Positions 16,701-52,341 of a DNA stretch of 64,000 bases are shown here, piece after piece. Numbering within the stretch: the stretch's first letter is position 1; the number at the start of each line of letters is the position of its first letter. The notes below the pieces were generated by a model. It saw only the letters and a program-made list of their open reading frames with translations, did not search any database and was not told the DNA's origin. Location of the stretch: positions 8,478,225-8,542,224 of the forward strand of contig OZ005690.1 of the NCBI GenBank assembly GCA_963930775.1, given 5' to 3'. The DNA comes from Cliona cf. orientalis (lineage: Eukaryota > Porifera > Demospongiae > Clionaida > Clionaidae). A program made the position numbers and the translations under genes.

Positions 16701-19700
16701 ATGTAATTTATGTTGAGTCACAATTATTAAAGTCTTTATTAAAATTACTCGCGTGCCTGTGGACAAGGAAAATAAGTGAGCAAACACATTCTTTGTCACA
16801 CTTAAGAAATGCATACATCACTGGTACATGGAAGAAACTGGACAAACATAAACCATTAACAGTATAAAGGAAGCTTGAGAAAAAAAGGTGGTGAATGTAC
16901 TAGGAGAACCAACAGGATGGTCAAATTAGGCCACTAGTGACAGAGGAAGGCATTTTTACAAATGAAGACTAGATGTGCCTTGAGCTTAATGAAAATTTGC
17001 ATGCACATACATGTCAAACCTTCCCTACAATGTAACAATATTTTCTCCCCCACGCATTTCTGGACCACTATATACTATACTGAACTTGTCACTAACTTTT
17101 TAAGACATACATGTGGCAGTTCCGTGTAGAAAATGAACATTATTCCGAACGTAAATTATTGTGAAATGGTTGGCGTTAATTTTAGCGTTCTGACTATAAA
17201 CCTTTTCATAAGCTTAGTACACTCGCCTGCACTTCTATGACAGGCAAACGCTACCTGAAAGCTTCGGAAACGGCCCAACTGCTACACAAACCACCTCTTC
17301 ACTGGCACACTGCCGTAGGCAACTTACGGGAATGGCGGTGGAATTTCAACGGGTTCGAAGCTTTTGTCCCCTTCGCGATACTTTCGCCTAGTTCTTCGTT
17401 CATCTAGCTGACAAACGAGCGTCGAAAAGCCTTCTAAGAACGCAAGCCGCTCTTCGTCTCGATCTGTGCTATTCAATTTTTGCTGAGCATACAAAAATTG
17501 ACAATGACAGAACGTCCAAACGGGTAGCGTTTGACGATCAATACCTCATCGCATAGACGCGCTATCGCAATGGCGATCGAGAAATGCACACAGCATGCCT
17601 TTTGGCAATGATAGGTGTGGAAAACTCGATCTTGGTCAAAACAGAATACACTGTGGCTAACGTACCGGTACCGGTACCCAAGATTTAGTGCTTGGAGTAC
17701 CGGCAACGCTATAATAGCTATAGATCCCTCGGGGGCTGGGATCTATAGCTATATATATAGTATTGTAATTACTGAACGCTAATGAGGCTAGGAGCCGGAG
17801 GGGGGGTCGGGTTTAGGTTATGGTTGTTGACCAAGGGTTAGTATTATAGTGGTAGAGTGTATAAAGGTGGCAAAAAACGGCATCTGGCAGCAGAGAGCTG
17901 GGTGGACGAGTGGGCTAGGGCTGGCGATGGTCATGGGTTCGAATCCCGCTTGATTATTCGAGTTCTTTTTTTTTCCTCCCACTTGAGAAAATTTTCTAAG
18001 TTTTTTGGCGGGCTAATTGCTGGTACTCGAAGCACAAAATTTCCAGTACCGGTACCGGTACGTTAGCCACAGCAAACAGAATAATGTTCGTTTTCTACAT
18101 GGGACTGCCACACATGTATATTATACATGTATCAACTTACATAGGGTTTATGTCATTAGAAATGTCTGTGGAACAGTCAATAAGTCTGCATGTAATTAAT
18201 ATCAATAAACATGGTAACAGAGGTGATAAAGACAAAATACTTTGACAGTCATGTCAATAGTATTATATTCACCCTATCTCTGTAAGACCAGGGAAACCCA
18301 CATTCATGACAGCACGCATCAGTGGAAGTAAAATCACTTTCCTGTAATATACGAGATTAAATTCATGAGTAAATAATCATGATTAGTCTAGCAACGTACT
18401 CAAGTTCGAGTGAAATTTGACGATCACCAAATGCCAGCAGGAGAGCCTCATATTCTTGTTCATCAAACAGACAAGAAGAAATCTTAATCTTAACATTATC
18501 ATATCTAGAATTTTCTAGAAAGTAAGTCAGTGAAGCTGAATCAGAACGAACAAGATTAGAAAGTGAAAATGATCCATTATGAAAATTAAAGACATGAGTA
18601 CATGACAAAGGACACTGAAACTCATATGCACAATGAATATGAAAAAGGTGATTGGATGATGTTGCCTTAAGAATTGAATCAAAAATTGCTTTGGTGGCAA
18701 GGTTCGAATAGTCCATCATTCCACATAAGAAACGCAAAGTAACTGAGAGTCGATCATCACCACTATTACGATTAATGATGTCGACAACTTTTTCATGATC
18801 TTTGAGTATACATGAGTACATGTATCTAGCGGCCAAGAATTCTTGCATTGTCAGGTGAAGAAAAGAGTATGTTTCAATTGTTCCGGTAAGAACAAAAAAT
18901 TGATCTGTAACCAGCGTTTCAAGGCCACATTGCATACCTGGCTGAGATGAAATTTGTATATTATAGATATCCTTCACTTCCTTGGCGGTGAAAACCTGTT
19001 TTGATTCCAAAGTTGCACAAAATGCTAGATAGCAGACTTTGTTAAGCTGCAGTTCGTCTTCTTCTTTGAGATTATCGAAGGAATGAAGTGAAGTTGGATG
19101 CTCAACCGTTTTATTACTACAACGACACATCCAAGTGAGTGTAAAAAGGCGATAAAATTCGGTCTCAGTTTTTGGTAAATTTGATTCATTTTGTGCCAAA
19201 TATACTAACATGGCACAATGAAGAGGAAGATAACATACATTTAGTAGATTTGGATGACTTTCTAGATGATCTATAAGTGAACTTGTTTTCTCTTCGTTTT
19301 CAAAAAATGTTTCGATATATTGAAAAACCTGTTTCTTAAAAAAGCCAACCACTTCAATATACTTTGTAGCGATATTTCGAAAACTGATAGTAGCAGCAGG
19401 ACGAGAAGACACAACCACGACAGATTTAGTAAACATTTCTTTCATTATTATTTTCTTGACAATGTTGCGTTCCGACATGCTGTAATAATACTCATCGTAA
19501 CCATCTAGGAGGAACACAACATTTTCACCACGATATCTTTCAATATATGAACGAATGCACTGCATTTCCTTTAAAGAGAGACGGTTGCAAGAAGCCTTAA
19601 GAAGTTGGCTCAAATAGACGTCACCTGTTTGACTTAGCTGGCGTAGATGAACTAGAATTACTACCTTAGCTTCCGTCAGTATTTTCTTCTTCCCCCACTC

Positions 19701-20071
19701 GCATGAGATATTAAGCATCAGAGTTGTTTTTCCACTCCCTGGCCTCCCTTCTAGCAGGAAGAGTGATCCATGATCTACACCCTTGAATAAATCATCAAAA
19801 GATATATTTGTCTTCTTTCCATACACTTCATCGATATCTTTTCTCACTGTTTTTAGTCTAATATGCTGCGCCCTTTTATCTTGCTGAACTAAAGCTAACT
19901 GAACAAAGTTCATCAGTTTGAGACGAGGCCAAGTTTTTGATGCTGACCGCAAATTTAAATAAAATTGAGAGAGTGTCTCAGCACATCTATCAATGGTTGG
20001 AGGTTTCTCAGCACAATCATCAATGGTTGGAGTTTCAAGTCTTATCCGTTTTGATGGAGGTGATGATAAAT
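5753..20071 (-). CDS. NLR-type immune sensor: NACHT NTPase plus leucine-rich repeats
   Basis: Exons in transcript order: 20071-18400 (NACHT), 18341-18273, then LRR exons 16670-16587, 16459-16382, 16055-15984, 15462-15388, 15286-15191, 13639-13556, 13384-13301, 8598-8512, 7514-7428, 7361-7266 and 6030-5846, and a last exon 5799-5753 ending TGA. The NACHT exon has Walker A GRPGSGKTT (about residue 113) and Walker B VVFLLDGYDEY. Each LRR exon is 72-96 bp, starts and ends in phase 2, and reads like LDDSTW...LQNCSRLQHL. The frame stays open through all joins, giving about 938 residues from the NACHT exon on. The tail is acidic. NLRs are cytosolic pattern sensors; a role here is by family. The first exon begins at an acceptor (needs one base from upstream), and the N-terminal exon, perhaps Death or CARD, was not found. 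The 46-bp last intron is the least certain join. Confidence 0.87.
6224..6791. mobile_element. 568-bp TIR MITE (pogo/Tigger-like ends) in NLR intron
   Basis: The left end is CAGTGGAACCCCTCTTAACG and the right end is its inverted partner (CTATAGAGGGGTTCCACTG). TA flanks both sides (6222-6223, 6792-6793). The motif AACGGCCAC recurs several times inside. No transposase remains. It lies in the intron between the last two LRR exons. Confidence 0.85.
7420..9230. repeat. Tandem duplication carrying one LRR exon
   Basis: The segment around exon 7428-7514 and its flank (to about 7890) recurs around exon 8512-8598 (to about 9135). Matching flanks include AATGATGTTTGCTATCGTAG, and a segment with GAGATGAGGGGGTGGGA occurs at both 8451 and 9160. 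The unit is about 1.1 kb. This shows how the LRR array gained an exon. Embedded are TATG/TG microsatellites (8398-8443, 9120-9150). Confidence 0.85.
9300..10100. other. Intronic sequence, no gene seen
   Basis: Long NLR intron. A TG/CG microsatellite lies at about 9760-9800. No exon in LRR phase, inverted repeat or RNA gene was recognised. Confidence 0.5.
10240..10570. repeat. Dispersed repeat ending in GCGCATGCGC hairpin
   Basis: The unit ends with a short palindrome (CCCCTTGCGCATGCGCGCGGGG, here at about 10538-10560) preceded by ACAGACGGACAAACC. The same arrangement (ACAGACAGACAAACC then CCCTCGCGCATGCGCCGAGGG) is at 35440-35503. Another GCATGCGC motif lies near each left side. It could be a SINE or MITE; no transposase or Pol III boxes were confirmed. 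Confidence 0.55.
10678..10765. repeat. GA microsatellite
   Basis: An imperfect (GA)n tract followed by a run of C. Apparent Ser/Leu-rich reading frames here are repeat translation only. Confidence 0.9.
11183..13043. mobile_element. 1.86-kb non-autonomous TIR element, GTGACCC ends
   Basis: The left end is GTGACCCGCTATGGAAAAAC and the right end is its inverted partner (GTTTTTCTATAGTGGGTCAC as the complement's ending). It is flanked by ATGTT on both sides (11178-11182, 13044-13048), a 5-bp duplication. No transposase frame is visible. It contains TG (about 11922-11955) and poly-C (about 12385-12418) tracts. A relative with the same ends and a recognisable GAGTTATGGC segment lies at 39578-41465. 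It sits in an NLR intron. Confidence 0.82.
13301..13790. repeat. Tandem duplication of an 84-bp LRR exon with its intron
   Basis: Two copies of a ~255-bp unit: exon 13384-13301 and exon 13639-13556, each followed (on the plus strand) by closely matching sequence with ACATGCACTGGAACTGAATA at about 13468 and 13725. Both exons keep phase 2 and read GLDDS or NLDDS...AHIAKG. They are the newest-looking LRR pair besides the 7.4/8.5-kb pair. Confidence 0.88.
14075..14250. repeat. Short tandem repeat, ~80-bp unit
   Basis: Two and a half units built around GGTACATCCCAT, TCCGTCCCAG and GATGGGACA. Intronic and not in LRR phase. Confidence 0.7.
14481..15173. mobile_element. 693-bp TIR element with 7-bp target duplication
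   Basis: The ends CAAGGGCTTATCGAG...CTCGATAAGCCCTTG match as inverted repeats over about 45 bp, including the inner ATGTAAC/GTTACAT segments. ATATAAT flanks both sides (14474-14480, 15174-15180). The target length suggests a hAT-like relative, but no transposase remains. Intronic in the NLR gene. Confidence 0.8.
16671..17112. other. Intronic, no exon seen
   Basis: NLR intron sequence between an LRR exon and the TIR element at 17113. No acceptor/donor pair in the right phase was found. Confidence 0.45.
17113..18111. mobile_element. ~1.0-kb TIR element with nested tRNA-like insertion
   Basis: The ends GTGGCAGTTCCGTGTAGAAA and the inverted partner at 18073-18111 (both run on into GAACATTATTC) are flanked by ACAT on both sides. 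A second element (17651-18072) sits near its right end. It lies in the intron between the linker exon and the first LRR exon of the NLR gene. Confidence 0.78.
17651..18072 (+). mobile_element. Foldback-armed element with tRNA-like (SINE) core
   Basis: The arms CTGTGGCTAACGTACCGGTA and inverse enclose a core with a tRNA-like A box (about 17903, GTGGACGAGTGG) and a B box GGTTCGAATCCC (17936-17947), then a T run and AAATTTTCTAAGTTTTTTGG. AAACAGAATA flanks both sides, as a target duplication would. Cores of the same design are at about 43229-43460 and 45385-45620. A tRNA-derived SINE is the likeliest origin. Confidence 0.65.
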
Positions 20072-20643
20072 CTACACAATTCAAAATTCAAAACAAAATC
20101 AATATTGTCCATTGCTTTTCATGATCTAATAATTACATGCAAGGACTGATATAGGATTGTTAACTTTCAGGAAGGGGAAATACAGTAGCAGGCAAAAAAG
20201 TTCCAGTTCCGTTGTGGTTGTACGCAAGTAAAACACTGCATTTCTTACCATGGAACTTGTACACAATGTAGGCCTGAACGTGCAAACGTTGAGTAAGCGT
20301 TTTACGCATGCCTGTACGTACGCCTCGCAAGCGTTTCCATTTGTTGAAATTAATATTACATTGAACTTTTATTAAAATATTTAAGTCGACCTTTGATGGC
20401 AGTTGATTTGCGGTTGATCATGGAGCAAGGAAAAGATACGTAAAAGGAGCCGAGGAATGTATCGGAAACACACAGAAGATTCATTGATATCGCTGACTTT
20501 CAACTCTCTCTCTTGTAAACAGCTCCTCTACTGGCAACATTGAGCGCCGTGTTCGTTGTGTCACAATCGATCAAGTGTCTCGAGTCTCTTTGTAAATCGA
20601 GCTCAGGTTAGTCGTGAGCTTACAAACAGCTCTGAAGGATTCC
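20072..20643. promoter_or_regulatory. Divergent intergenic region between NLR and BEN genes
   Basis: The NLR gene runs left and the BEN-type gene starts rightward at 20644, so this stretch should hold both 5' ends. It is richer in CG than its surroundings (20270-20640). On the minus strand an ATG directly before GTAAGA (about 20250) could be a tiny first exon of the NLR gene, but its phase does not fit the known acceptor. No TATA box is obvious. Confidence 0.4.
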
Positions 20644-25870: not shown

Positions 25871-26670
25871 ATGGTTAAGTTCCTAGTGTGTTTGTTCTTC
25901 ATTGCGCATACGATACCGAGTCTGGGCGAGGCTGGCGGAGGTGGAAACAAGCAGACTCAGTCTGTTGCGATTGCGAGTAATACCGAATCAGCCTCAACGA
26001 TGACCTTTCAAGTAACCATGTAAGTCACACTTAAACTTATGTATGCTTTCTCGCCTTAAAAATTGAATTTAATAGCTGCATGGCATTATGAAGTAGCCCA
26101 ACACTAGCTATACAGGTAACTTACATTCACATTGCATGTGTATTTTCATAGCCGATTTCTTTGGGACCTGACAAACAACGAAATCTACTGCCCTCCTGAT
26201 GACGTAGTGAAGGTGTGGATAGACAGGCTATCTGATATGCTGGGTGTAACTTTGTATTACTCAAGAAGAGTCATCGACAGTATTGTTGCATGAGTCAACA
26301 AGCTACGAACAGAATCGCAGAAACTAAAAGGTGGCAGGCAAAGGAAGAGCTACTTTGAGAGGGTTTGGAACTTTCATGTTCAGTTGAGTGATGTCAACAC
26401 AATCCAGGATCTATCTGCTGAAAATAAGACAATGAAGAGTAAGGTAGAGGAACTACAACAGCAACTTGCTTCCAGTTCGAAACTCTTATTGCAAGCACAG
26501 AAAGGATCAGATCAGCCTAGTAAACAAAAACGAAAGCGATCGGCATCATAAGGTGAATATTCAACAAGGCATCAGCGTCGCTTAAAAAAACTCGTACAAG
26601 TGATTGTGCAGCATCCCTGAAATGGCTTGAACAAGAAGGAGTAACACCTCTCAGTATCGTTGTGCTAAAG
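25871..26670 (+). pseudogene. Zinc-knuckle gene of unknown function, 5' part
   Basis: Exon 25871-26019 starts MVKFLVCLFFIAHTIPS and ends at GTAAGT in phase 2; the next exon begins at 26152 and reads FLWDLTNNEIYCPPDDVVKVWID..., then a coiled-coil (KVEELQQQLASSSKLLL) and a basic stretch (KQKRKRSAS), then RHQRRLKKTRTSDCAASLKWLEQEGVTPLS. The reading is interrupted by stops, and at about 26670 it runs straight into BEL/Pao sequence. The other end of what looks like the same family is at 33122-34573. I believe related proteins are multi-copy in sponges and cnidarians, but no function is known to me. It may be a domesticated or mobile gene. Confidence 0.55.
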
Positions 26671-29600
26671 TCGAAGAATGATGATTTGACCGACATTGAT
26701 AAATTCAATTATTTGAGATCGCTGCTTGAGCGCACGGCCCATGAAGCAATAGCCGGTCTGACCTTGTCCTCAGCTAATTACCAGGAGGCTATCGATATTC
26801 TGCAAAAGCGATTCGGTAATAAGCAATTGATTATTTCAAAACACATGGAGATCCTGTTGAACACCGAAGCCATTACATCTGAGCAGAATGTGAGAGGTTT
26901 GCGCCGTCTATATGATGATGTAGAATCCCACATAAGGAGTCTGAAATCGCTTGGAGTCACACCAGACTCGTATGGTGCTCTGCTGTCGCCTGTGCTCTTG
27001 AACAAGCTCCCACCTGAACTTCGCCTCATTGTCAGTAGAAAGATTCCCGACTCTACGCTAGATATTGATTCACTCTTGAAGATTGTGGAGGAAGAGCTAC
27101 TTGCTAGGGAACGAACCCAAGCCCCAACCCAGACACTGCCTCGTCGAAACCAAGATAAACCTCGTTCTACCGCAACTACACTTTTCTCTGGCGCGCCGTC
27201 TCCCGCCTCCAGTCCAACTTGCTGCTATTGTCAGCAGCCTCACTCTTCAACTGAATGCACCACCGTATCTAGCATCAGTGCACGGAAGCAGATCCTCCGA
27301 ACAAGTGGTCGTTGCTTCAACTGTCTCAGGAAGGGTCACCTCATTCGCAACTGTCGATCTCCAAGAAGGTGCCAAAGGTGCAATGGTCGACATCACTCCA
27401 GCATCTGTGAGGGACGCTCCCTTGAACGGACACCCTCAGGTGTCGATCAGCTGAGCTTGGCCCAGCCGACAAGTACCCCACTCAATCCTGAAGCTCCACC
27501 CTTTACCACCACGCCCACATCGAGCAACCTCTGTACCAATGGAATGAAAGCTGTGCTACTTCAGACCGCTCGTGCCTCTATCTACAATCCTGCTCAACCG
27601 CATCGTTCAATCGAGGTCCGTGTACTTCTTGATAGTGGAAGCCAGAAATCATACATATCTGAGCGAGCCAAGGGGCAGTTAGCGTTGCAGCCGACTGGAG
27701 AACAGCACTTGTGTATCGCAACCTTTGGCTCCACCCGAGAAGGACCCAAGGTATGTCAGATAGTAACGATAGGAATGGTGGGGAAGGGGTATCCTCATAT
27801 GCAGCTATCCCTGTATGTTGTACCAATGATATGTGAACCCTTGGCCAGCCAACCCATTGCTGCCTGTACTAAAGAGAATCAGCATCTTGCATCACTAGAG
27901 CTAGCTGATTATTGCGATGGTGACCAGAGCTTGGAAGTTGATATCCTTGTGGGTTCAGATTATTATTGGGACTTGGTCACGGGGGGGATTAGCCGTGGTA
28001 GCGGTGGTCCTACAGCTATCCACACTAAGTTGGGATGGGTGCTATCGGGCCCAACACGGTCCAGAGAGGCAGATCATTGCTCCATGAATTTAGTGACAAC
28101 GCATGTGCTACGAATCGATACTCAGCAGAACGACTCGAAATCTTTGGACGAGACGCTACGATCGTTCTGGGACCTTGAGTCTCTTGGCATTCGTGAGCCT
28201 GAGAAAACCATGTATGACGAGTTTGCCAATACTATTGCTTTTCGAGATGGCAGGTACATGGTGTCATTGCCTTGGAAAGAATTCCATAGTCCCCTCCCTG
28301 ATAATTACCAGCTTAGTCACAACCGACTGCGGGGATTGTTGCACCGACTGAAGCAGACTCCCTCCATCTTGCGAGAGTATGACGATATCATACGTGATCA
28401 AGTGGATAAGGGCATAGTTGAGCCTGTTACGGAGACAGATCCAGCCTTGAGTCGGCTTCACTACTTGCCGCACCACGCTGTTATCCGCACCGACAAAACT
28501 ACAACGAAGTTGCGCATTGTCTACGATGCTTCAGCGAAGTCGAATGGGCCCTCTCTGAACGATTGTTTATACACGGGTCCAAAGTTTAATCAATTGATTT
28601 TGGACATTCTGATGAGATTTCGTTCATTCAGAGTAGCCCTAACAGCGGATATTGAAAAGGCCTTCTTAATGATTTCCGTGGCCGAGCATGACCGAGACGC
28701 GCTCCGATTTCTCTGGGTCGATGACCTTGCTAAGGATCCACCTGATATCCGCATACTGAGATTTACCAGAGTTGTATTCGGAGTCTCGTCAAGCCCATTT
28801 TTGTTGAATGCAACAATCAAGTATCACTTGGAGCAGTATTTGGAATCTTATCCTGATACCATTCGATGCCTGCTTCAGTCCACCTATGTCGATGACATTA
28901 TCACAGGAGCTGCCTCAGAAGACGAAGCTTTTGACCTCTACGCTCAAGCAAAGGAAATCCTTCAACGCGGAGGCTTTAATCTCAGGAAATTCCTGACCAA
29001 TTCCCGACACCTTCAATTGAGAATTGATCAAGCCGAGAAGTCTCGCAACCAACCTAAGAAGATCGTGAGGGAAGAATGTCCACATTACTTAGACGAGACT
29101 TATGCTGAAGCCACTCTTGGCAGCAACCCTGGACAAGGAGATGGGGAGCAGAAGATACTTGGGGTACGCTGGGAGCCAACCAGTGATCAGCTTATATTTG
29201 ATGTAGCTGAAATCGCTCAACTCGCCGGAACTCTGGAACATACCAAAAGGAATGTTGTGAGTACTATAGGGAGATTTTACGATCCCTTGGGATTCTTATC
29301 TCCACTCATCATCAAGTTCAAAGTCCTGTTCCAGAAGCTATGTGAAAGCAAAGTTGACTGGGATCAGACACTCACCGGGGAGCTTATGCAAGAATGGAAG
29401 ACTCTAATCACAGAGCTCCAAGAGAACCAACCAGTTTCCATCCCTCGGAGTTATCTTGCCAATGTGAATGGAGAAGTTGCCTCCTACGAACTCTACGGCT
29501 TTTGCGATGCCTCCCTCAAGGCTTATGCTGCTGTCGTTTACCTTGTGTTGAAAACGGAGGAGGAAACTTTCGTGAGATTTGTGGTAGCCAAGACAAGAGT

Positions 29601-32600
29601 TGCCCCACTTCAAGCGCAGACGATACCGAGACTCGAATTGCTGTCCGCACTACTCCTTTCAAGACTGATTACGACTGTGTCTAATAGCCTGAAATCCACT
29701 CTACAACGGTTGGAGCTGAGATGTTTCACTGACTCGCAGGTTGCCTTGTTCTGGATCCATGGCATAGACAAAGATTGGAAGCCCTTCGTACGGAACAGGG
29801 TCGCAGAGATTAGGAGATTGGTTCCTCCAAACTGTTGGAGCCACTGTTCGGGAGAGACTAATCCAGCTGACCTACCATCAAGAGGCCTATCATTGATTGA
29901 ATTGTCGGTGAATCAATTGTGGCGCCATGGACCAGAGTGGCTTGGTACGAAACTCATCAGCCAGGATGAGACAGACTCGGTGAGTATGCCTGAAGAATGT
30001 GCTACGGAGATGAAGGCCAAGAATCAGCCATCTCACAATCTACTGACCCCTAATCCAAAGCAGACTGTTGGGGAGATAATGGACTACCGGAACTACAGCA
30101 CCCTGTCACGATTGCTAAGAGTGACAACGTATGTTCTCAGAGCTGTGAAGAGATTCAAGGCTGGTTCTACCGCACTTACCTGTTGTACTACGCTGACCAC
30201 TGAAGAACTGTCTGATTCAGAGAGACAATGGATCACATATGTTCAGATGCAACTAACTCGGGAGAAAAGCTTCAGCACCTGGCAGAAGCAGCTCGATCTT
30301 TTCGTCGATGACAAGGGCCTGTGGCGTTGCGGTGGAAGACTGGCAAATGCGGACATTCCGTACAGTACAAAGCACCCCGTGCTACTTCCACGAGATCATC
30401 CGTTCACAGCTATGATCGTCAGAGATGCACACGAACGAGTAGGCCACAATGGGGTCAAAGAGACACTGACGGAAGTCAGAGCAAAGTTTTGGATTGTGAA
30501 GGGTCGAAGTTTAGTGAGATCCATAATCCATCGCTGTGTTTTGTGTCGCAGATTTGAAGGAGCCGCATACCATGCTCCACCTCCACCACCGTTGCCTGAG
30601 TTTAGAGTCAAAGAGGAACCACCGTTTACCTTTACAGGTGTTGATTTTGCCGGTCCGCTCTACAGTGCTACACAGCAAGAGAGTAGATTTCTACCACTGT
30701 ATGGTTTTTGCAGTGTTTTGTGGTTAATCTTGCATGTATTTTGATTTGATACCCAGCTGGGTCAATGGATGGACTATCTACATACACAGCGGAATGTTGA
30801 TATCACCTTCTATATGGCTTCAGCATGCAAAAATAGCCAAAAATTTCCAATTTTTATGTTAGGCACATTTCACGGGATTGGATTATAGTTAAGAATCCAG
30901 ATTTGAGATGAAGATAGATACCAACTAGATGCATCTTTGTGCCAAATAAGAAGTCTTAACTACAAAGGGTGACAGAGATATTGACCAAAATAGCCTAAAA
31001 TATGGTCTATTTATGTTAGGCACAAATCTTGCATGAAAGTGTTAGTTAAGAGTCAATATTGTGCTCAATGCATCCTTATGCATTAATAATTCTGGTGTAT
31101 ATGTGGAACTGCGAATGTTTTGCAGGAAACGCCCAATCCGGAAGCAAACGTTTCCGCCGAGTGCTCGAGACGGGTTGGAGTCCGACTTGATGACGTAGTG
31201 CCCAACGCACGTGTACAATAGTGACGTTTTTATTGACCACGCCCACTGGCGATCTAAGAACGAGAAGGCAGCGAGAACAGAGTTGTTAGCGTTGAACGCG
31301 TGGAGCGCTTTGCTTCTAAGGCGTCGAAGCGAGGTAAGATAGTAACGATAGGCAGCCCAAAAGCCTTTTTAATGCTCCGAAGTTTTTTTGTGGGGTTGAC
31401 AGTCACTGCCTCACTAGGCGGTCCGATTGTCGCTCGTGTTAGCTATGTATGGTAATACTATGTAGAAGTAGACATACCAGAGCGATTCTCTACCTTCAGA
31501 AACTTACCCCCTCTTGTCTATAGCCTTCGATCTTGCGATTTTTGATCGTTTGTATTGCTATGTATTGTGCACGTGATACCAGACTAACGTCATTATTCGT
31601 CATAGCTTCTGTTACGGAGCGGTCTTTGTTTGACGCTTTGCACACAAATACTGCTGCTAAAAGTGATATTTCTATTTATTATAAGTAATAATAAGTGTGC
31701 ATGCAAAGTTAGAAAAAAATCTACTCTTTTGCTGTGTAGCACTGTACATCCGCTCATTTGGCCTGACTGCATCCAACAAGGTGTGGATTTGCCTCTTCAC
31801 ATGTTGCGTGACCAGAGCAATTCACCTCGACATTGTGACTGATCTATCGACCGAAACGTTTCTCAGATGCCTTAAACGGTTTGCTGCGAGACGAGGGATG
31901 CCCCGTAAGTTCGTTTCAGATAACGGAAAGACATTCAAAGCAGCTGCCAAATTCATCAAGGCTGTATTCAAGGACGATATGGTACTGGAGCATCTATCAG
32001 GCCTAGGCGTGGAGTGGAAGTTTAATCTGGAGAAGGCCCCCTGGTGGGGTGGGATATTTGAACGTCTTGTGAAGTCTACGAAACGCTGCCTGAGGAAGAT
32101 GGTGGGACAGGCCAAGCTGTCGCTAGATGAGCTGCAAACTGCAATTGTAGAGATCGAGTCAATCGTCAATTCGAGACCACTGTCGTACCTGGCGTCTAGC
32201 GATATGGAGGAACCTTTGACACCGTCGCATTTGCTAATTGGTAGGCGAGTGCTGAACCTTCCAGACAATCTTGGATACATTGTTGAAGCTGGCGATGACG
32301 AATTCATGATTGACACCAGTCAGCTAAACAGGCGATTAAAACACCTCAACAATACACTCAACCAATTCTGGAAGAGGTGGAGGACCGAATACCTCACAGA
32401 ACTCAGAGAATCACACAGACAGAACCATCGAGACTACTCATCACAACCCGTAATTGAGGTCGGGGATGTAGTTGTCGTGTATGATGAAGGCTTACCTCGA
32501 GGATTTTGGAAACTTGGAAAGATCCAGGAGATGATAGTTGGCCGAGATGGCAAGATACGGGGAGCCACAGTTAAAGTAGCCTCGCGAAACCGTCAACACT

Positions 32601-33115
32601 CACTGCTACGTCGACCAATTCAGTTACTTTACCCGCTGGAAGTGCGCAGTGAACCTGAAAATCTAATCGAAATTGAGCCTGAGCCAGAGACTTGCTCACA
32701 GGAAGAGAGTATTTCTAACGAGATTCCACCAGGCCCCCCAGATCAAGAGCCAAGGCGACGCTCACAGCGTAGTGCAGCGAAACAGGCCGATGATCGCAGA
32801 AAGGCCTGCATGCTTGAACTTGAGAACTGAATTTTGATTAATTTTCGTTGACCATGTCTGGTCAACGGGGGGAGGATGTGGTGAACTGAACTCTACAATA
32901 TTATGCTATTGTTATTATTATTGTAATTTCTAATGCATCTACGAAGTTATTGTGCTGTTATCATTATCATTGATTTGTGGACGTCATGTGATATTCACGT
33001 GACGAATGATGTACCACGCTTCTCAGTTTTTGATGAATTACAGTGAGCGTTGAGAGTGTTGTATCTGGTTGAATCGGGTGTGTAGCGACTATCTAGTGTG
33101 CGAATAGACTAAGGG
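26671..33115 (+). mobile_element. BEL/Pao LTR retroelement fossil
   Basis: Parts in order: the DUF1759-type gag region, CCHC-type zinc knuckles (about 27220-27410), aspartic protease (LLDSGS, about 27630), reverse transcriptase (YVDD at about 28884), RNase H (from about 29480), integrase zinc-binding segment (about 30380-30560), integrase core with the BEL-type C-terminal domain (31745-32830), a purine tract (about 32866-32875) and a probable 3' LTR starting TGTGGTGAAC at 32877. No 5' LTR or primer site is found; the left end abuts a zinc-knuckle gene piece. A 1.08-kb TIR element lies inside the integrase region. It is broken, with about two large lesions, but the remaining frames are long and open, so it is probably fairly young. 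Confidence 0.93.
30663..31744. mobile_element. 1082-bp TIR element nested in the BEL fossil
   Basis: Ends CAGTGCTACACAGCAAGAGA and inverse, TA on both sides (30661-30662, 31745-31746). The ends match the 707-bp element at 2985-3691 with few changes, so both belong to one Tc1/mariner-like MITE family. No transposase. Its presence dates it after the retroelement inserted. Confidence 0.9.
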
Positions 33116-45641: not shown

Positions 45642-46374
45642 CCGCTCAATTTTTATGGAGCGCGAGCGCTTGCAGAGCTCAACTGGAGATCGCTGTACCG
45701 AGGGCTAGCTGTCAGCCTGTTGTAGTATGATGTCGATATTCGAGAGAGGATTATCCATTTCTACCCCTATCAACGTTCCTGCTATCGACCACTGTGTTAA
45801 AAAGACGCTTGATTCAACCTGAGAAAAAGAGTCGCGGCAGGTCCCATCGTTGATTGTTCGTATGACCATCGAGGCCTCCGGGGGACCTCCTGGATACTCT
45901 AGAGCTGTTGTGGACTATATTATTAAATTGTGAGTATACTGCAGTACTATTAATTTTATAACTTGGGGCACTGGGGGATAATAGGGGTTGAGAGAGCGTG
46001 TGGGGAGAGTGTAGACTGGTGCAGAAAGCAAGCTTAAGGTACCATTTAATTGCGTGGGCGTGAGCGTCAGGAATGGCTAATTCAATTAGCGAATCGTGAA
46101 GGGGCGTGGCCGAAGAGGCCATACGAGTGCTTTTGGCCGAAGGTGGGCGTGTCCAGAATCGGCCAGGGATGATTATGCGCGTGTAATTAGCGACCGGAAG
46201 TGGCCCCTGAAGAAAACACCGGTAATTGCCCACATCAAAGCAAGATCAAAGCATTCTTTCTTAACTATTAACCGCAACGACAAAAAAAAAAAAAAAAAAA
46301 AAAAAGCTTATTAGGCCTAATTAAGCATGTGGGCGTGTTCCTGGCACTGTGTGGAGTGTGTGCGTGTGCGTTAA

Positions 46375-46845
46375 CCCTTTCGGTCACAGAAAATTCATGA
46401 GCTCACCCAGCAGGCCTTCGTTAGGTACAGGGTCGACCAGGCTGCGGTTGTTGCCGGGAAACCGAACGAGCCACGCCCCAATTATCGATCTCTGCAAACG
46501 GTTGCTCAAGATGCAGCTCAAATGCAGCCCAGAGAGGGAATGCAAGCAAAGTAATCGAGTCATGAGACAATACTAACACATACATCGCCTACAACACCAC
46601 TCTTTTGCTTTTTTTTTTTTTTTTTTTTTTTTTAAAGTGATCAAAGCATAGATGAAAGCTTCTTCAAAGCAAAACCACTTTGACGTCATCACTTCAAAGT
46701 GCCGACGGGACCGCGACTATTGTGTGGGCCAGGTTTTCTTATCGGTAGCCTAACCGCCGCCAATGAATTATTCATATCTCTATTTAGCCGAAATACGGTC
46801 CATGCAAAATTGTTGTAAATTTACAACAATTTGTGACCGAAAGGG
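46375..46845. mobile_element. 471-bp TTAA-flanked MITE, left copy
   Basis: CCCTTTCGGTCACA at the left, TGTGACCGAAAGGG at the right, TTAA on both sides (46371-46374, 46846-46849). A 25-T tract sits in the middle. By eye it is identical to 50655-51123 except for T-tract length. Confidence 0.92.
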
Positions 46846-47026
46846 TTAAATTCCACTCCCTGCACATGTGTGGATGTGTTGTATACCTCATATACCATCA
46901 TAATTATTATTACATCAAGATAGATTAAAATAAAATCACACATTTTCCAGTCATATTAGAGTCATATTAGATAGTAATGCATGGACACTTGGTTGCTAAA
47001 AATATATTAATAATTACTAACAGTAA

Positions 47027-50000
47027 CTACATATTATGATATTCTTGAAAACATCTGATCTTGCATAGTCTAATTTTACACACAGAACATCCAAATGAAG
47101 TGTGCCTCTTCCTCTTCATCTTGATACATTGGTGGCACCTACCCCTCTTTAGGCCTATGTCACTAACTCTACTTAGACAACAAACACTAACATCTTGGGC
47201 CTTACCCTTATTCACACTACTCTGTGCCTTAGAACTGCTGCCAAATTGTAATAGCAAACGTGCTAGATCCAAACGAAATCCAAGCAAATCCTTTGGTTTG
47301 ACACCACATCGTTTACAGTTGTGTTTATAGAGAATATGGGCATTATTTGTTGACACATCAAAACAAAAAAGGAATGGCCGAAGCCAGCAACGGATTTCCT
47401 ATCAAAACCATAGGTCCTCATCAGCTGATCAGTGAGATCAACAGCACCCATGTACTTATTATAGGCTGGTAAGAGTGGGGGAACTGACTGCTCCCTCAGA
47501 ACACCCTCAGGCTGAAGCCTGAACACTTTACTGTTCATAGTCTCTGGAAACACATTAGTAACAAAGCTAACAAGCTTGCGATCATTGAATACAAAATACT
47601 GCTTCCCATCTACACTCTCTGATACGTAGCTACCCTTTGGTGGTGCCACTGTCCTCAAGCTATCTGGGAAACCTGCTGCTCTCCTTTGAATACTTCCAAC
47701 TATAAATATTTCATCCTTAGCCAACATGTCAACTAGGGGTCCACTAGTGTAGAAATTGTCGCAGTACACAACATGATTTGTGCCTACAAATGGAAGCAAT
47801 AGGTCTGTGACCACTCTCTTTACTAAGCCCTTCTCAGGCAGCTTCTCACCAGTGGCTATGTCCACAGGCCTGCCATCATAGAACTGAAAAGTGCATAAGT
47901 AACCACAGCAAGAACAGGAGCAGCACCAAACCTTGTAGCCTAACTTAATAGGTTTTTTGGGCATACGCACCTTCCCTTTACAGTGACCTTTGTACTTAAC
48001 CATGGATTCATCAATGGCTAGCTCCTGTCCAGGGCTGTATTGTTTTAAAAATGTCTGGTTCAGAACATCTACAATAGGCTTAATCTTGCGAGAGGGACCA
48101 ACACCACCAGGTGGAATTGTGTCATTATCTACCACATGGAGGTTGGACCATATTGCCCAAAACCTATTGAGGGACATGGACTGTTGTATAGGCTCCAGAC
48201 CAAGTAAACGGTCTATGCTCCAATAATTCCTAACTCGTGGAAGCCTGTGAATGCCCATTAGGACAAGAATGCCAAAGAAAGTCCATACTTCCTCCACTGT
48301 CACATCTACCCAATTGACACGATTCCTCTGCCTAGCATACCTATTTGTCTCAGTAGCTATGTGGGAGGTGAGTGATTCTGGCCAGAGCAGCAACAGATAA
48401 TCTAAGGCAGAGTTACTTTCGGGGTCATGATTTTCTGCTGGCCCTTCCGCACCTAGAAATTCAGGGTAAAGCCCAGACTCTAGTGATGTTTTAAGGGCAA
48501 GTTCACTACATAATCTGCGTCGCTTACGGGTAGGTGCCATAAGTTCCTCATCAGATTCATCACCACCACACTCTGCAGAGAAATATGATATTAATGAATT
48601 ATAATATTAATGTTACACATAAACCCCAGTTTAAACATGGTTCTGCACCACAATTCAACACCAAGACCACACCCACTTTATCATCACCTTCTACACCACT
48701 TCTGACAGCCCAAGCCACACCTACTTCCTGCTGACGTCACTTCCCATGCCAAATACAGGCCTCCAAAGTCGATTGTGGCCCAAAGCCACACCCACTGCTC
48801 CTGCTGACATCACTTATTGTAAGCCCATTCTGGCCACGCCCACTGCATCTCCCCAATGCTGATGTCACTTCCTCATTAAACCATGCCCACTGCAGCCTAT
48901 TTCAGGCCTGTTCTGGCCTCCAAGCCACGCCCACTTCTCCCAATGCTGACGTCACTTCCTACGCCTATCGCAGGCCCGTCCTGGCCCCAAACCACGCCCA
49001 CTGCCCCTCCCATTGCTGACGTCACTTCCTGTGTCTATTGTAGGCCCGTTCAAGCCTCCAGACCACGCCCACTTCTCCCAATGCTGATGTCACTTCCTAC
49101 GCCTATTGCAGGCCCGTTCTGACCCCAAACCACGCCCACTGCCCCTCCCCATAGCTGACGTCACTTCCTGTGTCTATTGTAGGCCCGTTCAAGCCTCCAG
49201 ACCACGCCCACTTCTCCCAATGCTGACGTCACTTCCTACGCCTATTGCAGGCCCGTTCTGACCCCAAACCACGCCCACTGCCCCTCCCCATAGCTGACGT
49301 CACTTCCTGTGTCTATTGCCCGTTCAAGCCTCCAGACCACGCCCACTTCTCCCCATTGCTGACGTCACTTCCTACGCCTATTGTAGGCTTGTTCAAGCCT
49401 CCAGACCACGCCCACTTCTCCCAATGCTGACGTCACTTCCTACGCCTATCGCAGGCCCGTCCTGGCCCCAAACCACGCCCACTGCCCCTCCCATTGCTCA
49501 CGTCACTTCCTGTGTCTATTGTATGCCCGTTCAAGCCTCCAGACCACGCCCACTTCTCCCTATACTGACGTCACTTCCTACGCCTATCGCAGGCCCGTTC
49601 TGACCCCAAACCACGCCCACTTCCCCTCCCCATTGCTGACGTCACTTCCTGTGTCTATTGTAGGCCCATTCTGGCCTCCAGACCACACCCACTTCTCTCT
49701 ATGCTGACGTCACTTCCTGTGTCTATTCCATGCTTCCGACTGAAATTCTGGCCCCCAACCACGCCCACTGCTCCTCCCCATTATCAGCGTCACTTCCTGT
49801 GCCTACTGCAGGCCCATTGTGGCCTCAAAACCACGCCCACTTCTCCCAAAGCTGACGTCACTTCCTGTGCCTATTCCAAGCCTCCGACTGAAATCCTGTC
49901 CCCAAACCACGCCCACTGCTCCTCCCAATTGCTAAAGTCACTTCCTGAGCCTATTCCAAGCTTCCAACTGAAATCCTGGCCCCAAACCACGCCCACTGCT

Positions 50001-50615
50001 CCTCCCCGTTGCTGACGTCACTTCCTGTGCCTATTCCAAGCTTCGGACTGAAATCCTGCCCTAAAACCACGCCCACTGCCCCTCCCCATTGTTCACGTCA
50101 CTTCCTGTGTATATTGCAGGCCTGTTGTGGCTTCCAAACCACGCCCACTTCTCCTAAAGCTGACGTCACTTTCTGTGCCTATTGCAAGCTTCCTGACGGA
50201 AGTTCTGGCCCCCGACCACACCCACTGCTCCTCCCCATTGCTGACGTCACTGATCAATTAGCCCCAGACCGTGCCCACTCCCTACTTAGTTGACGTCACT
50301 TCCTACACAGCACGCCCACTTCCACACACACATACATGCATGGTATACATACACACGATATGCGCATGCACACACACACACACACACACAACAGATTTTC
50401 ATGATCCAGATCGTATAAATATGCCTTTTTAGGCTTTGTCAAGCAGGAATAACCTTTACCATTGTAAGAATATTCTACTTACCTGGTTCAGAACCTAGTC
50501 CGACTTCTTCGTCAGAATCCAAGCAATCCTCGTCTGGTGAGCTCGCTCCGCTCTCTAAATCACTTTGGTTATCTTGAAAAGCGTCCACGAGGTCTTTAGA
50601 ACGAAGCTCCAACAT
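47027..50615 (-). CDS. piggyBac transposase
   Basis: Exon 1 (50615-50483) encodes an acidic N-terminus, MLELRSKDLVDAFQDNQ..., and ends GTAAGT in phase 1. Exon 2 (48572 to 47027) starts ECGGDESDEELMAPTRKRRR. The catalytic Asps are placed in LAIDESMVKYKG, VVYCDNFYTSG and GAVDLTDQL, the usual piggyBac order. The C-terminus is a Cys-rich zinc-binding domain (CCLS...GRCHQCIK...CSVCKIRLC). Total about 560 residues, normal for the family. One frame change lies near 47395, between DRKS and the WLRPF-type segment, so this copy is probably inactive, though a base error is possible. The enzyme would cut and paste at TTAA sites in the nucleus. The intron (48573-50482) holds the minisatellite. The gene's 5' end lies only 40 bp from the right MITE copy, so its promoter is probably within that copy. 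Confidence 0.92.
48700..50320. repeat. ~70-bp minisatellite with CRE-like and CCACGCCC boxes
   Basis: About 23 units of 68-71 bp (often alternating as a ~139-bp pair). Each contains TGACGTCA or a one-base variant followed by CTTCCT, and CCACGCCCAC. It sits wholly inside the transposase gene's intron. Apparent Pro-rich reading frames on the plus strand are translations of the repeat. A TGACGTCA is also present in each flanking MITE, so the array may have grown from related sequence. Confidence 0.92.
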
Positions 50616-50654
50616 TTTTTGGCTGTTTACAAATCTCGAGACATCTACAACTAA

Positions 50655-51123
50655 CCCTTTCGGTCACAGAAAATTCATGAGCTCACCCAGCAGGCCTTCG
50701 TTAGGTACAGGGTCGACCAGGCTGCGGTTGTTGCCGGGAAACCGAACGAGCCACGCCCCAATTATCGATCTCTGCAAACGGTTGCTCAAGATGCAGCTCA
50801 AATGCAGCCCAGAGAGGGAATGCAAGCAAAGTAATCGAGTCATGAGACAATACTAACACATACATCGCCTACAACACCACTCTTTTGCTTTTTTTTTTTT
50901 TTTTTTTTTTTAAAGTGATCAAAGCATAGATGAAAGCTTCTTCAAAGCAAAACCACTTTGACGTCATCACTTCAAAGTGCCGACGGGACCGCGACTATTG
51001 TGTGGGCCAGGTTTTCTTATCGGTAGCCTAACCGCCGCCAATGAATTATTCATATCTCTATTTAGCCGAAATACGGTCCATGCAAAATTGTTGTAAATTT
51101 ACAACAATTTGTGACCGAAAGGG
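50655..51123. mobile_element. 469-bp MITE, right copy
   Basis: Same sequence and orientation as 46375-46845; T tract two bases shorter. Right border TTAA, left border CTAA. Its left edge lies 40 bp from the ATG of the minus-strand transposase gene. Confidence 0.92.
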
Positions 51124-51832
51124 TTAATGCAGGTTTTATTGCTTCCGATTGGGCGTGGCCTCACGGGCCAGTGCTTGGACATCGGCGCCTGGGACTTGGC
51201 CTCGGCGATAGGTGGGCGTGTCCCGGAAGCGGTGGTGACCTTCGAACCCCGCGAGGAGGCTTTGGGGGCGTGGCAGGAGGTCAAAGGTGAGGCCATGTCT
51301 GTTAATGAGGCACTGTATGGCGGTGCGATCGAGGGGCCTGTACGGCCGGACGGAAGCTGACGATGGTTTGAAGCGGATGTGGTTGCGATGACGTGTTGTT
51401 ACTCCGCCCACACAGGAAATAAGGTGAGCTCTTGCGTGGGCGGTGTGGCAGAACGGCCTCCAAGTGTTTGTGTGTGTTTTGGCCTTGAGGAAGCTGTGTG
51501 GTTTAATTGGGATTGATTGTGGGCTTCCGGTGGACATCCGGTGGTTAGTAGGCACTTGATTGAGAATGGTGGTCCTTGGGGAAGAGGGTGGGGCTGTTTT
51601 GGGCGTGGCCTGGCCCCTCCCTTCCGGCTCGGCTTCCGGTCCATGGAGGATATTAAATGAACACTTCCGGCTCTAGCAGCCACACCCCTGAGACCTGTGC
51701 AATTAAAAGGGCGTGGTTACACATCATGCACCTCACTAATGACTTTGATGTGGTTTAGGTGTCATATCCCCACCTCACGCCCACGCAATTTAATGGTACC
51801 TTAAATCAGCTTGTGGAGTATCTATCACTAAT

Positions 51833-52160
51833 CTCGCGCAGCCAGACTCTTACACCTCGGGAGGGGAGGGAGAGAGTCTGGTAAAATGCTATACATGTAC
51901 ATTGAGTTGTCCCAGTGCCTGGTATGAGGCGCGACCAATCAGATTACATCTTTATGGCATTATACATAGTTTGCGATGGCGTATCCGACTGTGAACGGAC
52001 GAGATATTATTGCGCACGCGTTTTTATTCTCCGTTCACAATCGGATATGCCACCGTAAACTAATTGCGCCTCGTACGAGGCGCTGGGACAACTTGATGTA
52101 TAGCACTTTACCAGACTCTCTCCCTCCCCCTCCCGAGGTGTAAGAGTCTGGCTGCGTGAG
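51833..52160. mobile_element. 328-bp palindromic TIR element, ACTAAT duplication
   Basis: Long inverted arms (CTCGCGCAGCCAGACTCTTA and inverse) with an inner inverted pair (TATCCGACTGTGAACGG / CCGTTCACAATCGGATA). ACTAAT flanks both sides (51827-51832, 52161-52166). Confidence 0.85.
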
Positions 52161-52341
52161 ACTAATCTATCACATGGATTACCCAGTCCATATGCATGGC
52201 ACCACAGGAGGGCCTAGTACCCTCATTGCATGTGTATACGCTGAGTACCTATATAGGCTCTGATGTTTCCCTCCAATACACATCAGTAAACTACGCCATG
52301 TCATTCAGACAGACATAAAATACCACAGAATCCTCGATATA

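Follow-up and report, generated by a model that had tools for sequence, protein, structure and literature searches.

The window analysed here is a stretch of 64,000 nucleotides from the sponge Cliona cf. orientalis (C2:8478225-8542224), and the sample is one genome of 216.8 Mb. Positions 46375-51123 of the window hold a transposable element of 4.75 kb, consisting of two long terminal direct repeats (LTDRs) and an internal unit (INT) of 3805 bp that encodes a piggyBac transposase. The element is surrounded by a host element (OUT). Its features, in window coordinates, are as follows.

46034..46374, plus strand: left part of OUT, ending in the TTAA target; ten uninterrupted OUT copies are continuous across this TTAA
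46371..46374: outer left TTAA target-site duplication (TSD)
46375..46845, plus strand: left LTDR, 471 bp, resembling a miniature inverted-repeat transposable element (MITE), with terminal inverted repeat (TIR) CCCTTTCGGTCACA
46846..50650, minus strand: INT (TTAAATTCC...CATCTACAA), which encodes the transposase on this strand; found in 15 copies at 14 loci
46846..46849: inner left TTAA, also present at the bare INT
47263..48572, minus strand: exon 2 to the first stop, DDE domain PF13843; splice acceptor assigned by eye
48580..50480: presumed intron of ~1.9 kb, assigned by eye, mostly a 65-80-bp minisatellite (CCACGCCCACT...TGACGTCACTTCC)
50483..50615, minus strand: presumed exon 1, its ATG being 35 bp inside the right edge of INT; splice donor assigned by eye
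50651..50654: inner right CTAA
50655..51123, plus strand: right LTDR, 469 bp
51124..51127: outer right TTAA TSD
51128..51804, plus strand: right part of OUT

The two LTDRs lie in direct orientation and are free of substitutions, the only difference being two bases in a T tract (25 versus 23). The initial annotation, which had described two MITE-like repeats of ~470 bp in the same direction and near-identical apart from this tract, was correct in this respect, as it was in proposing a second, outer pair of inverted repeats: the latter measures 31 bp (46034-46064 and 51774-51804) and is 97% complementary. Each LTDR bears inverted ends of its own (CCCTTTCGGTCACA...TGTGACCGAAAGGG), and the end motif including the TTAA, TTAACCCTTTCGGTCACA, occurs four times in the window (three exact matches and one with a single mismatch, up to three mismatches being allowed), whereas a mean of 0.07 is expected by chance. 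The TTAA borders ascribed to the repeats are present on the outer left (46371-46374), the inner left (46846-46849) and the outer right (51124-51127), but the inner border of the right LTDR is CTAA (50651-50654).

The gene on the minus strand matches the piggyBac transposase domain (PF13843, E = 8.1e-69), and the copy at a second locus, C15, does so with E = 3.4e-75. Compared with PDB, the C15 transposase matches piggyBat (9c0f, 1.1e-33) and a chain of 6x67/6x68 (1.1e-22); the latter two entries are listed as 'Transposase' and are presumably the cabbage-looper piggyBac. Three Asp positions, which we take to be the catalytic ones, can be aligned by eye in the C15 copy (stretches aIDEs, yCDNf and gaVDLtDQ). 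The exon-2 frame is open over 515-524 aa at C6, C15, C3, C5c, C16 and in the bare INT, and is also free of stops at C2b. Within the intron (48700-50310), the minisatellite repeats CCACGCCCACT and TGACGTCA recur every 65-80 bp, the latter presumably a CRE-like motif. Since only 35 bp separate the ATG from the right edge of INT, promoter sequence further upstream would fall inside the right LTDR.

The initial annotation had proposed that the gene-bearing unit, and not just the MITEs, be sought at other sites. INT is indeed found in 15 copies at 14 loci (L029-L044): the search with its 3' part returned 16 matches, namely the 15 copies and one 70% piece at C7:4748643, and the 5' part recovered the 15 copies again. 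The LTDR search (54 first-look candidates, 40 scored; partial matches were read within the fetched loci) yielded 70 matches, 25 of them full-length: 17 in two-ended units, 2 in copies without a right LTDR, and 6 solo. The arrangement LTDR-INT-LTDR occurs at eight of the 14 loci, namely C2w (the window copy), C8, C5t, C5b, C2b, C3, C5c and C16. Among these, C5t is a dimer, LTDR-INT-LTDR-INT-LTDR, whose middle repeat is shared. Locus C10 is composite-like: its left repeat is longer, and its right repeat lacks the left end; four loci (C6, C15, C1 and C9) keep the left LTDR alone, and one (C5d, at C5:9.63 Mb) is a bare INT with no LTDR. The length of INT varies among copies; that of C5b has an internal deletion (2594 bp long) and that of C9 contains an internal insert. 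In C9 (L042/L043), C1 (L038) and C10 (L039), three of the more diverged copies, the left repeats are not compact (~470 bp) but reach 4.95, 2.48 and 1.26 kb, and their interiors are repetitive. An ancestral autonomous element within these long repeats was considered and rejected: the longest frame has 107 aa and the interior consists largely of repeats (frames of at least 90 aa were printed, and no family search was made on them).

The inner left border, GGG-TTAA-ATTCC, is identical in all 14 INT copies flanked by a left LTDR, and the inner right border, CTACAA-CTAA-CCC, in 9 of 9 junctions at the eight loci that keep the start of the right LTDR. A common inner junction combined with differing outer flanks implies one origin and subsequent movement as a unit. 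Since the structure is found again at loci whose flanks differ, an assembly collapse is very unlikely as the cause of the identity between the repeats. With high confidence we interpret 46375-51123 as a composite-type piggyBac, LTDR-INT-LTDR, in which each LTDR is a complete non-autonomous element with a left and a right end. A chance insertion of two MITEs beside an ordinary transposase gene, with no life as a unit, would agree with the solo occurrence of the LTDR (six of the 25 full-length matches are solo) and with inner borders, TTAA and CTAA, that resemble insertion sites. It is contradicted for the present state by the recurrence of the same inner junctions at eight loci with differing outer flanks, five of which have an empty site (see below), and we consider it very improbable; the arrangement may still have first originated in this way.

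The outer borders are TTAA on both sides at six of the 13 LTDR-bearing loci (C2w, C8, C2b, C3, C5c and C15), TTAT on both sides at C6, C1 and, with one extra C, C9, and ATAC on both sides of the dimer C5t. Because many insertions sit within other repeats, empty sites can be read in paralogues, and such sites were found for eight of the 14 loci: C2w, C2b, C15, C6, C5d, C5b, C5t and C3 (of the others, C1, C9, C10 and C16 were outside the query, and C8 and C5c had no rows among the 40 listed, which were all for C3). The targets include TTAA, CTAA, TTAT and ATAC, and in 7 of 8 cases the break is flush with the element ends. Five of the eight loci have the repeat-gene-repeat form (C2w, C2b, C5b, C5t and C3); the empty site of C5b, at C8:1190801, agrees over 260 bp at 100% and has the target CTAA, and one of those of the dimer is at C2:12399955 (98%). 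Judged by recurrence, target sites, empty sites and by-product forms, the 4.75-kb unit has been transposed as a whole, in composite form, which bears out the earlier suggestion that this inner unit is mobile. The copies might instead have spread through segmental duplication or through ectopic recombination, a reading that has in its favour the existence of a perfect dimer and of paired repeats that lend themselves to recombination. We nonetheless regard it as most improbable, and as contradicted at the loci that have empty sites: the break lies exactly at the ends in 7 of 8 of them, and the 40-bp outer flanks differ among loci save for C2w and C2b, whose OUT hosts in turn differ in their outer flanks. 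Two target sites seem to have been used more than once. C2w and C2b occupy the same TTAA of OUT, and the C9 copy (6.60 Mb) and the solo repeat L046 (C19:2504044) the same TTAT of seemingly the same host repeat, which suggests preferred targets, some of them adjoining inverted repeats by eye.

The host element OUT measures 1018 bp without the composite, has the ends TTAA-GGTACC...GGTACC-TTAA and contains 10 internal TTAAs. First-look searches gave 1576 candidates for its left half and 1522 for its right half, 40 being scored for each. Twelve loci were entered into a comparison and 10 compared (L021 and L023, where both end motifs were not located, were dropped); these ten uninterrupted copies are contiguous through the TTAA into which the composite is inserted. 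OUT is a separate, abundant TTAA family unrelated to the composite, which landed in it. By the rule given in PMC9587614, ends of the form 5'-GG...CC-3' beside a TTAA indicate Kolobok, not piggyBac, and the termini, taken alone, point to OUT being Kolobok-like. The earlier suggestion that OUT and the composite (5.77 kb) might move as one unit is not supported, the segment being a 1018-bp OUT member interrupted by the composite. It could appeal to the two composites, C2w and C2b, that share one TTAA out of the 10 internal ones. The two differ, however, in both their nearest hosts and their nearest INT relatives: the INT of C2b is nearest to that of C8 (1/1910 differences) and not to that of C2w (5/1879), the host OUTs differ at 15/1018 positions with each nearer to other OUT copies, and 0 of the 12 remaining INT loci lie inside an OUT. 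We therefore rejected a mobile outer unit, which has little probability left. OUT also forms head-to-tail arrays with one fixed 40-bp spacer between the TTAAs (L064, C6:121600-123900; L065, C15:246900-249200), and an 81-bp array junction is found at at least 40 places (the best 40 of 259 candidates) on at least ten contigs; the OUT-spacer-OUT arrangement might in turn represent a paired-end unit whose core is very small. On its right, OUT adjoins a nested inverted-repeat element (51829-52164; arms of 38, 34, 35 and 33 nt).

The forms of the composite element can be arranged in a simple scheme. The INT transposase would pair the outer left and outer right ends, whereupon the whole 4.75-kb package moves; alternatively, it would pair both ends of one LTDR, which then moves alone. 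Departure of the right LTDR would leave LTDR-INT on its target site, departure of both LTDRs a bare INT, and recombination between the direct repeats could give rise to dimers and possibly solo LTDRs. What the window shows is an insertion of the composite into a TTAA of the unrelated ~1-kb element. With respect to the loss of the right LTDR, INT of C15 differs from the dimer INT at 0/1920 positions and that of C6 at 1/1910, while both loci are without the right LTDR and flush on the target at CTACAA. As C15 and C6 are nested among the young composites, the right LTDR was lost after the composite form existed; this nesting rests on the difference counts, the branch supports of the INT tree being 36-92 and partly strong. 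The join in C15 and C6 coincides with the expected cut of a piggyBac transposase for excision of the right LTDR; this repeat can apparently leave alone. In C9 one extra C is found at the join, which fits repair of non-matching overhangs.

In the bare INT C5d, the TTAA and CTAA borders of the composite are kept within an otherwise known repeat, and 10 bp are lost on the left. The simplest reading would be the loss of both LTDRs. An ancestral native gene locus was rejected as an explanation of C5d: eight of the nine copies of the left-flank repeat that were read run through ...CTACA-TTAA-ACTCC, with TTAA and not CTAA at the site (L063 diverges just before it), which makes the INT at this locus an insertion. 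The two INTs of the dimer C5t show no difference over 4183 bp, an insertion of ~330 bp included, and its three LTDRs are likewise identical; this points to a recent unequal exchange or an equivalent event. Nine solo-type loci were read: six full-length repeats, two versions of ~860 bp and one half fragment. Eight have both ends, and in five of these (L045, L046, L047, L052 and L053) the outer 4 bp agree. From these loci it is likely that the LTDR moves independently; solo LTDRs may be either insertions or recombination products. The LTDR pairs are identical including the T tract in 4 of 8 composites (shuffling p ~0.03 for the count of equal T tracts, 0.14 for summed differences), a weak indication of concerted evolution. 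At least one homogenising event between the LTDRs of C5c is likely, since its left and right repeats share two variants that among 19 aligned repeats are otherwise found only in C16-left.

A different order of events is conceivable, in which LTDR-INT, equipped with a cryptic end on the right (...CATCTACAA) and able to insert with a 4-bp duplication, was original and the right LTDR joined later at a neighbouring CTAA. It draws on the four LTDR-INT copies with matching 4-bp borders (TTAT in three, TTAA in one; three flush, C9 one base off), on the place of C1 and C9 among the more diverged INT copies, and on the association of TTAT with the LTDR-INT form. We hold this order to be unlikely: the right end of INT is unlike the left inverted end by eye, C15 and C6 nest within composites, the composite C3 and the composite-like C10 are roughly as diverged as C1, and the bare INT keeps a CTAA where its host repeat has TTAA.

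Several observations nevertheless weigh against the interpretation as a composite that sheds its repeats. The diverged copies C1 and C9 are both right-less, and LTDR-INT may have been an early form. The loss is one-sided, with four right-less versus no left-less-only copies, and TTAT targets occur in three of the four right-less and none of the nine two-ended copies (4/286, ~0.014; calculated by hand and post hoc), a bias not predicted by simple excision. The left side of C5d, 10 bp short, is not flush. In three of the eight solo-type elements with both ends (L048, L049 and L050) the outer 4 bp differ, and the outer borders of three loci are unequal: CTAA/TTAA at C5b and C10, and TTAA/ATAA at C16. 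Rare variant TSDs including CTAA are known for piggyBacs (PMC10813416), and piggyBac ends carry a TTAA overhang (PMC7351741); the CTAA target of C5b, with one side now TTAA, would be as expected if such an overhang had paired imperfectly with CTAA. As its frame shifts ahead of the C-terminal Cys-rich domain, the copy in the window is probably inactive. Finally, all copies come from a single genome.

A standard piggyBac has one TIR pair around its gene. The present element shares with this family the transposase domain, the catalytic Asp positions, the C-terminal Cys-rich region, a 4-bp target of the TTAA type and the end motif CCCTT, the most conserved one in piggyBac (PMC10813416). It departs from the family plan in that no single TIR pair surrounds the gene; each end is instead a complete element with left and right ends of its own, in direct orientation. 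At least one other piggyBac in the same genome has the ordinary plan: a distant relative at C1:25983200-25987700 has a single pair of inverted ends (13/14 matching) 3.3 kb apart. For a second distant relative (L067) the scan used found no TTAA-bordered ends. The distant piggyBac transposases (30-43% identity) are, among the scored candidates (99 of 336), strongly concentrated on one chromosome half, C1:17.6-37.5 Mb: 78 of 81 matched stretches lie on contig C1, 74 of them beyond 17.6 Mb.

The initial annotation had called a composite transposon unusual in a eukaryote; unusual it is, but there is a precedent in KolobokP (Kojima & Bao 2022, PMC9587614), for which LTDR-INT-LTDR, solo LTDR, multimers and solo INT are described. 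Both elements have LTDRs with independent TIR pairs (~450 or 660 bp long in KolobokP) and multimers with shared LTDRs (usually TSD-flanked in KolobokP). KolobokP is likewise reported to occur as LTDR-INT, INT-LTDR and solo INT, these bearing excision footprints, to have empty sites in other repeats and, in one family, to show a strong one-sided excess of one form (40:6). The differences lie in the transposase and termini, which are those of piggyBac here (PF13843, ends CCC...GGG) and of Kolobok there (5'-RR...YY-3'), and in the right-less joins, of which three out of four are flush here, with a single additional base in the remaining one, compared with losses of 1-5 bp in KolobokP. Bacterial composite transposons, which are also summarised in PMC9587614, resemble the element in that two mobile elements flank a segment and either the whole or one end moves; here, by contrast, the transposase is central and the flanks are non-autonomous. 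The behaviour that characterizes a composite transposon, with outermost ends moving the unit and a flank moving alone, is found here in the form of sequence traces. Maize Ac/Ds macrotransposons and Composite Insertions (PMC4270019) are similar in the joint use of the ends of nearby elements and in tandem direct duplications, but those described are individual alleles, whereas the present element has multiplied into a family. Coe1 of Beta vulgaris (PMC2426827) is set apart by its description, which mentions an En/Spm-type transposase and retroelement-like features. By title and abstract start, no piggyBac with the LTDR-INT-LTDR plan was found among the papers listed from the open-access literature outside bioRxiv, where the KolobokP paper alone deals with this plan; the closest eukaryotic match found in print belongs to a different transposon family, KolobokP, and the piggyBac version appears to be new.

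With regard to other proteins, no counterpart of the His-Me finger homing endonuclease that KolobokP has in its INT was detected in 10 of the 18 stop-to-stop frames of at least 60 aa that overlap the C15 INT (Pfam, E 0.001), which returned the transposase only; a very diverged or spliced one could be missed. The 10 scanned frames gave no match to a reverse transcriptase either, and the LTDRs carry TIRs, unlike a long terminal repeat (LTR) retrotransposon. Elsewhere in the window, an open frame of 574 aa at 18363-20087 encodes a NACHT domain (PF05729, 8.8e-21), and long frames of a BEL/Pao-type LTR retrotransposon lie at 26557-32830 (PF05380, 2.1e-50; PF03564, 1.1e-28; DUF5641, 3.1e-18), with matches to RVT_1 and rve slightly under the Pfam cut-off.

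KolobokP was presented by Kojima & Bao as unique among DNA transposons in having LTDRs, and it was speculated that its homing endonuclease aids its multiplication by inducing unequal crossover (PMC9587614). A piggyBac with the same plan and by-products, and so far with no endonuclease detected, is an argument for the plan being able to arise more than once, and LTDR-INT-LTDR may need only a transposase and ordinary repair. We lean, if only slightly, towards a reading in which the plan is independent in piggyBac and free of a homing endonuclease, and in which the gene depends on the right LTDR for its promoter, such that excision of this repeat would set free a non-autonomous element and at the same time silence the copy. 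As part of the same reading, the OUT dimers and arrays around a fixed spacer suggest that paired-end units are recurrent among the TTAA transposons of this lineage. The chemistry of piggyBac is well worked out (PMC7351741), which makes the choice between the outer and the inner pair of ends directly measurable.

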